Part shown: positions 46,967 through 49,316 of the stretch, piece after piece
How positions within the stretch are numbered: the first letter of the stretch is position 1
Layout: each line of letters opens with the position of its first letter
Assembly (NCBI GenBank): GCA_951812755.1
Contig: OX638329.1
Span: forward strand, 977,339 to 1,041,338
Length of the DNA: 64,000 nucleotides
Origin: an uncultured Latescibacterota bacterium
GTDB taxonomy: Bacteria > Latescibacterota > UBA2968
Direction of reading: 5' to 3'
Made by a program: the position numbers and the translations under genes
The notes under the pieces: generated by a model
The model's database searches: none
Seen by the model: only the letters and a program-made list of their open reading frames with translations
Told to the model about the DNA's origin: nothing

Positions 46967-47076
46967 GCGTTCACTTCCGAGTATAATGGGTGAGAGAAAA
47001 TTTTTGCATTCTGATATTATACCGTTTTTTGGGGCGGTGAACAAGTTTCTTGTAAAACATATCTAATCTGTGTATA

Positions 47077-47556
47077 ATGGCAAATATGCAGATCACTTTG
47101 ATCACTGTGGGCAAGTTCAAAGACGCCTGTTATCGAGACGCCGCACAAAATTATATCAAACGACTGAAACACTACGTCGCTTATGATGAAATTGAAGTGC
47201 GAGAAGAGCGCGGTGGCAAAAATGCCCGTGTGTCTGATATTATCGAAAAAGAAGGCCATCGCCTTTTAAGCGCGTTGCATCCAGATGCCACTGTGGTTGC
47301 TCTTGGGCCTTCTGGCAAATTGTGTCGTTCTGAAGCCTTGGCCAAACGCTTGACAAATCTGCGCGTACAAAGAAAAAGCCGCCTCATTTTTCTCATTGGC
47401 GGCCCCTTTGGGCTTGCATCTCGAGTTTTGTCGCGTGCAGATTGGCACCTGTCTCTTTCACCTATGACCTTCCCGCACGAATTGGCGCGTGTTATTTTGC
47501 TCGAGCAACTCTATCGCGCCTTCACGATTATTAGAGGTGAAAATTACCACAAATAA
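47077..47556 (+). CDS. rlmH: 23S rRNA (pseudouridine1915-N3)-methyltransferase RlmH
   Basis: 159 residues, SPOUT-fold methyltransferase. Marks: ITLITVGKFKDACYRDAAQNY, the SAM-binding LIFLIGGPFG, and the family ending LSPMTFPHELARVILLEQLY-RAFTIIRGENYHK. The dimer methylates helix 69 of 23S rRNA in 70S ribosomes. A second ATG at 47086 is possible (MQITLI). No clear ribosome-binding site. Divergent from the S55 gene. Confidence 0.96.
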   Translation: MANMQITLITVGKFKDACYRDAAQNYIKRLKHYVAYDEIEVREERGGKNARVSDIIEKEGHRLLSALHPDATVVALGPSGKLCRSEALAKRLTNLRVQRKSRLIFLIGGPFGLASRVLSRADWHLSLSPMTFPHELARVILLEQLYRAFTIIRGENYHK

Positions 47557-47645
47557 AAAAGCGGTAAGAGGTGAGACGCAAAAGGTAAGAGGACCACCCA
47601 ACCCCTCTCACGTCTTTCGTCTCACGTCTCACCGATTTAAAATCA
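47557..47645. repeat. GTGAGACG-type inverted simple repeat
   Basis: GGTAAGAGGTGAGACG (47563-47578) is opposed by CGTCTCACGTCTCACC (47619-47634). Similar pieces occur at 43098-43112 and 58710-58740. No gene seen. Confidence 0.55.
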
Positions 47646-47735
47646 GCCCGGGGGCAAACGACTCACACAGCCTGGGAGAGATGATTCCGCAGAGAATCCG
47701 GCTACGTTAAGTCAACTCGCCCCCGGGTTTTAACA
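47646..47735 (+). ncRNA. candidate structured RNA with four nested stems
   Basis: CCCGGGGGC (47647-47655) / GCCCCCGGG (47719-47727), GACT (47660-47663) / AGTC (47710-47713), AGCC (47669-47672) / GGCT (47700-47703) and GATTC (47683-47687) / GAATC (47694-47698) nest exactly, with TTTT after. It does not match a riboswitch, SRP RNA, tmRNA or 6S RNA I know. The reading as a transcript is inference; it may also be a mobile palindrome. Confidence 0.4.
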
Positions 47736-47848
47736 TGTCAAAACCAAACATGTGCTGACAAGAGGTAAGTCAGTAATGGCGTGTTCACTAATCCAAATGT
47801 ATGGTAAAGAGAATAGGAACGGGGAGTTCAGATAAGCAATTCAACACT

Positions 47849-47900
47849 CAGATGACTGAAGAAAATCCGATGGGGAATCGGTGTCATCTGCTTGTTTTAG
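47849..47900 (+). terminator. hairpin with T tract downstream of the structured region
   Basis: CAGATGAC (47849-47856) / GTCATCTG (47883-47890) and inner CCGAT (47867-47871) / ATCGG (47877-47881), then CTTGTTTT. Suggests the 3' end of an approximately 250-nt transcript from 47640. The remaining 47736-48038 shows no gene. Confidence 0.5.
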
Positions 47901-48038
47901 GGGGATCAACAAGTGTTTTCCGCAAAGACGGTATTAAGATAAGCCATTGTTTTTATTAAGTCAAGATTACTTTTTTTTTATTTGGTATGCGCCAGATATT
48001 GTGTATCTGGTCATCAGGTGCCACAGCCCAATGTGGTC

Positions 48039-49316
48039 CTATTTTCGAAATAATCGCGTGTACACCGTCGGTTCTTCAAAAATCCCTCCGCTTTGATCGT
48101 AGTAGTTCTCATCCAACACATAAGCACCACCTCGAGGTCGCAACCACGATGCATTGGGCACGGGATATTCTGAGAGCATGCGGTCCCAGGTGCCGTAATT
48201 TTCCGGGCCGTTGGATTCCATCAATCCCCCTTTTACTCCCGGGAATGCGGGCAGTCGCGCCGCTACATTTTTGTTCCATTCCACCAGCACGGGCACACAC
48301 GCATTATCCGCTACAAAACACGGCACATTAGATAGTATTGCCGCTTCGATCATGCGAAAAGCCAATGACAGGGTTTTGCCCGCGGGTTTGATCGCCATAG
48401 CACCATATCTCTGCTCCAATCGGGTGTGTACATCTGCAACGGTTTCGATGCTTTCATCTCCAGCAAAACGCGCAGGTAAGCCGTGTACATCGATATCTGC
48501 CGGGCGTGAGAAAGGCTCTTCAATCAGAACAATGCGATTTAGCATACCTTCATTGTCCGCATGATCTAATAAGCGCGCCATGCTGTTTTTTTCGCCATAA
48601 CGACCATTGGCATCGAAATAATAAAGCACATGGCCCGAATCGGTCATTTCTGTTTCGTACTGAGATGCCAGACTGTGGATCTGCGACAGACAGGCCATGT
48701 CTTTTTCAACCATTTCGGCTTCATCCCCAGGATGCCCAATTTTGATTTTTAGTATGTATGCCCCGCTATCTAAAATCGCCCGCAATTCATCAATGGGCAG
48801 GGTATAACTCACCGCAGGTACAAGCGCGACATGCGATTGGCGATGAGATAAAAATGAGCGAAATTTTTCTGGGATTAAGTCATTGAATGTCGCCAATCCC
48901 ATCCGCTTTGCATACAAAATCCATGCGGCGTTGTCCAGTGCTACCAGCGCAATCAGCGCGAATGTTCGGCGCAGATCTCTATAGCCCGTGATGGCTTTGG
49001 CATAAGAAAAGACCTCGTTTTCAACGGCGTCGAATAATGCCATTGGGTCGGCAAATTCTCGCCCTTTGACGTTCTGTAGTGCAAATTCCAGAAGAGACGC
49101 CTGGAGCAAATTGCCGCCCATTTCCGTATGTGCAGCAAATACCGCAGCGTCTGACCACAGCACAGCCAGACCGCCTATCCCAAAAGCCTCATATCCATCG
49201 GCATCTTTCAAACGCACGACGAGATTCCACTTTTCGTGAAAAGCCGATCCCTTAAACGCAAAGGGTCGCGCGAATGGCTCGCGCTGAATTTCTAAATCTG
49301 TTTCGACAATGTGCAT
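48039..49316 (-). CDS. enolase-superfamily enzyme (mandelate racemase/muconate lactonizing type)
   Basis: 425 residues. The N-terminal cap (FARPFAFKGSAFHEKWNLVV) and barrel motifs KIKIG (KxK catalytic lysines), YFDANGRYG and IEEPF and AGDESIE (Mg2+ ligands), then AIKPAGKTLSLAF are all seen; the opposing catalytic residue is a Lys. Racemase or dehydratase acting on a carboxylate is expected but the substrate is not predictable. Larger than dipeptide epimerases (about 350). Divergent from the kinase gene; the intervening sequence is repeat-rich. Confidence 0.9.
   Translation of the reverse strand: MHIVETDLEIQREPFARPFAFKGSAFHEKWNLVVRLKDADGYEAFGIGGLAVLWSDAAVFAAHTEMGGNLLQASLLEFALQNVKGREFADPMALFDAVENEVFSYAKAITGYRDLRRTFALIALVALDNAAWILYAKRMGLATFNDLIPEKFRSFLSHRQSHVALVPAVSYTLPIDELRAILDSGAYILKIKIGHPGDEAEMVEKDMACLSQIHSLASQYETEMTDSGHVLYYFDANGRYGEKNSMARLLDHADNEGMLNRIVLIEEPFSRPADIDVHGLPARFAGDESIETVADVHTRLEQRYGAMAIKPAGKTLSLAFRMIEAAILSNVPCFVADNACVPVLVEWNKNVAARLPAFPGVKGGLMESNGPENYGTWDRMLSEYPVPNASWLRPRGGAYVLDENYYDQSGGIFEEPTVYTRLFRK

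Follow-up and report, generated by a model that had tools for sequence, protein, structure and literature searches.

A small RNA gene that is absent from Rfam very probably lies on the minus strand, and not on the plus strand, of the window (the whole stretch of 64,000 nt of Latescibacterota DNA that was analysed), convergent with rlmH and oriented so that transcription runs towards it (Table 1). Comparison with related genomes supports the strand, the promoter, the approximate boundaries, the hairpin structure, the single copy and the restriction to one order; its expression and a trans mode of action we infer. The original prediction, made from this one sequence, was of a possible RNA of about 250 nt downstream of rlmH that matched no familiar class and was read on the plus strand: a structured RNA of ~250-300 nt does lie there, although on the opposite strand, and no Rfam family matched at its gathering score in the window. 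The RNA may well be a trans-acting regulator of translation, a reading to which we give an even chance.

Table 1. Positions of the small RNA gene, its parts and its neighbour (coordinates of the window; minus-strand features run from the higher to the lower number)
Feature	Position	Strand	Basis or detail
Small RNA promoter	47964..47936	-	-35 TTGACT (47964-47959), 17-nt spacer, -10 TATCTT (47941-47936); sigma-70-type
Small RNA gene	47929..47638	-	~290 nt; 5' end ~47929 and 3' end ~47638, deduced from where promoter and terminator lie
First C tract, CCCCC	47904..47900	-	Near 5' end; mean unpaired probability 0.76 in G000
5' hairpin, CCCC in loop	47890..47849	-	Inner part CCGAUUCCCCAUCGG, 47881-47867
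Conserved segment CUUAUCUGAACUCCCCG, which holds third C tract	47838..47820	-	CCCC at 47824-47821
Dispersed palindromic repeat in linker (...CATGTGCTGACAAGAGGTAAGTCAG...)	47744..47775		No part of conserved RNA
3' terminal hairpin, intrinsic terminator	47727..47647	-	Fold and covariation; 81 nt
Pyrimidine bulge AUCUCUCCCA (RUCUCUCC), proposed mRNA-pairing seed	47682..47673	-	3' side of terminal hairpin
T run after terminal hairpin	47642..47639	-	TTTT, CTGA before it
rlmH (SPOUT methyltransferase), convergent neighbour	47077..47556	+	PF02590, E 3.5e-52

Structure, strand and promoter of the small RNA

The four nested stems originally proposed between 47647 and 47727 form a hairpin exactly there, and the fold of the surrounding 97 nt is more stable than expected by chance on both strands (z -4.74 on the minus strand and -3.63 on the plus strand, with none of 200 shuffles as good on either). 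When 19 sequences were aligned, 93.1% of 494 cells were paired and 11 of 26 pairs carried two-sided changes; none of 500 shuffles reached this paired percentage, this number of two-sided pairs or this covariation score, and 14 reached the number of pair types. With 18 sequences, 94.0% of cells were paired and two-sided changes affected 12 of 26 pairs. When one strand was shifted by 1-3 columns, pairing fell to 32-54%, and RNAalifold on its own returned nearly the same hairpin. Because the innermost stems hardly vary, they are uninformative on pairing, either way. The core of the hairpin reads CAGCC..ATTC / GAATC-RTCTCTCC-..GGCTG, with TAGCC in the window's own genome (G000) and several members of its genus. 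On its 3' side the bulge RUCUCUCC is the most conserved piece among those predicted to be unpaired: UCUCUCC is invariant in 18 of 18 genomes and differs by one base in G019, and CUCUCC is predicted to be mostly unpaired across the 19 RNAs (mean 0.42-0.98). The T run that follows the hairpin is longer in other genomes (for example, TTTTTT in G012 and G020) and poor in G009 and G002. Several genomes have T runs on both sides of the hairpin, that is, on both strands, and the hairpin could stop rlmH transcripts on the plus strand too.

The choice of the minus strand rests on several measures. Across the alignment of 19 hairpins, G-U pairs fill 41 of 494 cells when the minus strand is read, compared with 8 that would be G-U on the plus strand. 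A covariance model of the hairpin scored the sense strand at 63-101 bits and the opposite strand at 16-29 bits where a second match was reported. Folding of the whole 271-nt region gave z -3.69 on the minus strand, with none of 200 shuffles as good, as against a non-significant z -1.36 on the plus strand (18 of 200). No sense reading frame runs through the whole set of 19 RNAs, so the small RNA is most simply read as non-coding; frames of at least 18 codons are absent from two of them (G001 and G017), although close relatives have short ones in common.

A scan of the minus strand for the sigma-70 consensus found one promoter where 1.2 were expected by chance, so it is conservation that carries the weight of the promoter call. 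Among 18 genomes, which have TTGACT-17-TATCTT or close variants at 179-254 nt from the hairpin, 17 of the 29 promoter columns are invariant, including 9 of 17 in the spacer. The pattern TTGACTNANNAAAAACAATGGCTTATCTT, allowing up to three mismatches, occurred once each in 17 of the 21 genomes searched (19 of them from the order discussed below) and its reversed control not at all; G005 and G010, the order's two negatives in this search, had no match, and G013 and G014, which lay outside the search set, also carry the promoter. The conservation of the spacer exceeds what a bare sigma-70 promoter needs, and a regulator site there is possible. About 29 nt upstream of the -35 element, a palindrome (CAGATA-ttgtg-TATCTG, 47993-48009) that is partly kept in the genus may be another such site.

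The 5' half of the RNA is less firmly defined. Its hairpin has the better fold on the minus strand (56-nt stretch: z -2.99, 0 of 200 shuffles; plus strand: z -1.88, 12 of 200), and in nine members of the genus 9 of 117 cells are G-U and none A-C when read on the minus strand. The covariation of stems in relatives that the original prediction had named as a check was found for the terminal hairpin but not to a significant degree for the 5' hairpin, where 86.3% of cells are paired, the two two-sided pairs were equalled by 122 of 500 shuffles and the genus shows one-sided changes only. A second hairpin with a T tract had also been proposed, at 47849-47898; the hairpin itself stands, at 47849-47890, whereas the plus-strand T tract after it is not conserved (GACTC or GATTC at loci L035-L038) and so is probably no terminator; this hairpin forms part of the 5' half when the RNA is read on the minus strand. 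The order of parts implied for the plus strand is accordingly reversed, with the main hairpin at the 3' end and the hairpin of the supposed T tract near the 5' end. Further along, the stretch CUUAUCUGAACUCCCCG is alike in eight of nine genus members, bar small differences, and less so in G008; the third C tract within it has a mean unpaired probability of 0.97 in G000. A tract of at least four C residues starts at RNA position 48-58 in 17 of the 19 RNAs (the exceptions are G011 and G020), and C runs were more frequent than in shuffled sequence at P < 0.05 in no more than 8 of the 19 genomes.

A relaxed Rfam scan of 47450-48100 returned eight matches, all far below their gathering scores and regarded as chance, the best of which (E 0.01) fell on a neighbouring repeat and not on the RNA. 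The only bacterial small RNA family placed over the hairpin was DUF3800-IV RNA (RF02963), at 18.5 bits and E 3.1 against a gathering score of 60.7; this far sub-threshold match, unreported in nine relatives, was rejected as a chance likeness of two long GC hairpins. The same relaxed scan of the nine relatives gave three matches, none on the hairpin. The 6C model was not among the Rfam matches reported for the window, the locus or the nine relatives, and ARAGORN found no tmRNA in the window or in seven loci.

Distribution across genomes

By DNA search of 100 genomes, the window's own included, the stretch was found in 12, eight other members of the genus matching over nearly its full length. 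We located rlmH in 39 of 60 genomes, and 18 of these, from families f1 and f2, have in common the downstream layout of hairpin and promoter. Counting G019, which has no rlmH match, 19 of 21 genomes from a single order carry the small RNA unit; in the two without a match, G005 and G010, rlmH lies at a contig end. The hairpin covariance model, run with stricter filters over 157 genomes, matched 19, all in this order (63-101 bits), with one sense-strand match in each, indicating a single copy. An exact 20-base motif sought across GTDB (84,980 species), a scan that misses relatives with a changed motif, occurred at 25 loci, of which 13 were confirmed by the model and belong to this order (G002, G004, G008, G009, G011-G018 and G020); the other 12 had no model match at E 10 and were set aside as chance. 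By record name, these 13 carriers are Latescibacteria/Latescibacterota (7), Gemmatimonadetes/Gemmatimonadota (5) and unclassified (1), and those from the window's genus (G002, G004, G008 and G009) are all recorded as Latescibacteria/Latescibacterota. No copies were found on plasmids, nor in viral contigs searched with two exact patterns.

The small RNA appears to be limited to one order, and outside it we observed weak, unconfirmed matches only. Of 26 genomes in families f3 and f4 of the same class, three gave weak matches to the model, four in all, and the best of them (29.6 bits; 301 bases inspected) contains a partial motif. Ten more distant rlmH neighbourhoods yielded 20 matches of at most 12.3 bits, three of which were inspected and are short terminator hairpins.

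Within the order, the small RNA looks like a free-standing gene that does not depend on rlmH: G019 keeps the RNA, promoter and hairpin included, immediately ahead of the S55-peptidase gene, and among the flanks compared the neighbour on the promoter side was found only at genus loci and not in G008. At L077:1585-1760 in G019, rlmH has apparently been deleted, and by inspection no more than a start-like remnant of it separates the small RNA from the peptidase gene. The promoter-side neighbour encodes a 425-aa protein (48039-49316) that is enolase-superfamily-like by inspection and matched no Pfam family at E 0.001.

Pairing with ribosome-binding sites and competing readings

We propose that RNA polymerase would start ~7 nt past the conserved promoter and produce a non-coding RNA of ~290 nt, terminated by the long end hairpin, which from the other side could terminate rlmH as well. 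The bulge RUCUCUCC and its flanks would pair with the purine-rich ribosome-binding sites of certain mRNAs, perhaps helped by the exposed C tracts of the 5' half, and translation of the paired mRNAs would be blocked or tuned without Hfq. We consider this explanation as a whole, in which the small RNA acts in trans by pairing its bulge region with ribosome-binding sites, to be a shade better than evenly balanced.

The ribosome-binding sites of G000 are of the AGGAG/AAGGA/GGAGA type. Taking the first ATG of long frames as start sites, we compared initiation regions with internal windows for 322 genes of G000, 283 of G017, 198 of G011 and 122 of G012. The 16-nt segment comprising the bulge and its flanks preferred translation starts to a degree matched by 2, 4, 0 and 1 of 100 shuffles in these four genomes, respectively, the pairing being centred 4-7 nt before the ATG. 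When windows containing N were dropped (4 in G011, where they had spoilt the internal mean of the first run, and 2 in G012), the corresponding values were 4, 3, 0 and 1 of 200. The bare bulge of 9-10 nt was matched by 18, 16, 74 and 46 of 200 shuffles; with so weak a preference it was rejected as a seed on its own, and much of the pairing signal comes from the flanks, themselves base-paired within the hairpin, and from pyrimidine content. One C-tract segment tested in each genome was matched by 24, 3, 3 and 44 of 100 shuffles (in the repeat run, 5 of 200 for G011), and we rejected the C tracts as the main seed since their preference for translation starts is inconsistent across genomes. In an earlier run on four segments of G000, the bulge segment was matched by 0 of 60 shuffles and three C-tract segments by 16, 19 and 16 of 60. 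Overall, these comparisons speak for pairing between the bulge region and ribosome-binding sites without proving it, and they name no target; complementarity to generic ribosome-binding sites falls short of showing regulation.

The main competitor is that the RNA binds or titrates a protein, the invariant bulge and C-rich loops forming the protein site and not an mRNA seed. Two stems that hardly vary enclose the bulge in a fixed frame, as is often the case in protein sites, and neither the bare bulge nor the C tracts have a clear preference for translation starts. We nevertheless hold this reading to be rather unlikely, given that the 16-nt segment does prefer translation starts and that the familiar partners were not found. 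Hfq was detected in none of 46 genomes, by a search that was positive in 5 of 14 named control genomes and could miss a diverged Hfq. CsrA was found in 14 of the 46, in 5 of 21 genomes of the order and in none of 11 of the genus (its control was positive in 3 of 14 named genomes, so that a diverged protein could be missed), and KhpA/KhpB had no match over the cut-off in 21 genomes and weaker matches in five, with a control positive in 10 of 14 named genomes and the same proviso for diverged proteins. On these grounds we also rejected an Hfq-dependent small RNA, a CsrA sponge of the CsrB/RsmZ type and a Khp-dependent mode of action. A bolder version of the preferred reading would make the RNA an order-specific global regulator of translation, its terminator hairpin being the active domain that presents a fixed bulge to ribosome-binding sites; we regard this as improbable, and if it is true, one RNA present in a single copy would modulate many mRNAs, or the ribosome itself, in bacteria without detectable Hfq and, in this genus, without CsrA.

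Four other readings are less likely still. That the locus makes no functional RNA and the hairpin simply ends transcription from both directions between rlmH and the gene that follows would fit the T runs seen on both strands in several genomes; a terminator, however, has no need of an invariant bulge, of invariant inner stems or of a conserved promoter 179-254 nt away, and these features are kept in G019 where rlmH is missing, which leaves this reading very unlikely. We think it just as doubtful that the RNA is a cis-acting leader of the S55-peptidase gene with the hairpin as an attenuator: the two share a strand and the peptidase gene is present at every compared locus whose sequence reaches that far, G019 included, but in all except G019 rlmH lies antisense in between, and the peptidase gene apparently has a promoter of its own, read by eye. 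A highly diverged 6S RNA has a smaller chance still. The 6S model (RF00013) matched none of 21 genomes, the window's own included and 19 of them in the order, so that their 6S gene is unaccounted for, although the same search was positive in only 5 of 14 control genomes and its silence means little. The fold here is also wrong for it: 6S RNA forms a single long rod, paired at its ends and opened by a central bubble, whereas in this RNA the 5' hairpins stand apart from a terminal hairpin of 81 nt. Least probable of all is an RNA or small gene on the plus strand downstream of rlmH, where GGGGAGAGATG resembles a ribosome-binding site and start; the plus-strand hairpin folds too, yet the G-U bias, the promoter and the model scores favour the minus strand, and the ATG in question is ACG in G008, G013 and G020 and TTG in G019.

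If the preferred reading of a small RNA pairing through its bulge region is true, it would represent a regulatory RNA family in Latescibacterota, reportedly an uncultured phylum with sponge-associated members, and would offer a handle on RNA control of translation in carriers without detectable Hfq. A literature search combining the phylum name with small RNA and sRNA terms returned no small-RNA study of Latescibacterota among the matches listed. The family appears to be a new one of a known kind, and it may resemble in its mode of action the 6C/B11 type, which is said to act independently of RNA chaperones. The multi-hairpin small RNA LhrC of Listeria has UCCC-type motifs; it is multicopy there, whereas here each genome has one sense-strand match. 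The mycobacterial RNA B11/6C is described in one report as a non-coding RNA whose exposed C-rich loops pair with ribosome-binding sites (PMC10470900). The likeness lies in exposed C-rich segments and possible pairing with ribosome-binding sites, although here the C tracts are mostly exposed with an inconsistent preference for starts, and the better-supported seed is a bulge region in the terminator hairpin and not a hairpin loop. Many staphylococcal small RNAs, RsaE and RNAIII among them, are likewise described as directing an unpaired UCCC motif at ribosome-binding sites (PMC2873960); a pyrimidine motif, predicted to be unpaired in the RNA here, is common to both, whereas lineage and architecture differ and no Rfam match was reported here. 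The family model and the promoter pattern together make the small RNA directly checkable in metatranscriptomes.

Repeats and neighbouring promoter

Two dispersed palindromic repeats lie at this locus. The one in the linker of the RNA (47744-47775) has further copies in seven genomes of the genus (G000, G002-G004 and G006-G008) and is missing or shortened at the locus in G004, G006, G007, G008 and G009. The other, of the GTGAGACG type, occupies 47557-47640, between rlmH and the terminator of the small RNA; 10 of the 11 other matches of the searched stretch in its own genome fall on it, and at the locus it is absent in G003 and G004 and replaced by a different repeat in G002. On the far side of rlmH, the S55-peptidase gene runs on the minus strand from 45191 to ~46970. 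Before it, on the same strand, lies the promoter-like TTGTTC-17-TATAAT (47016-47044), whose spacer contains an A tract and GG, as in the small RNA promoter. The listed start of the peptidase frame (47044) falls inside this element, and the true start is therefore probably further in.
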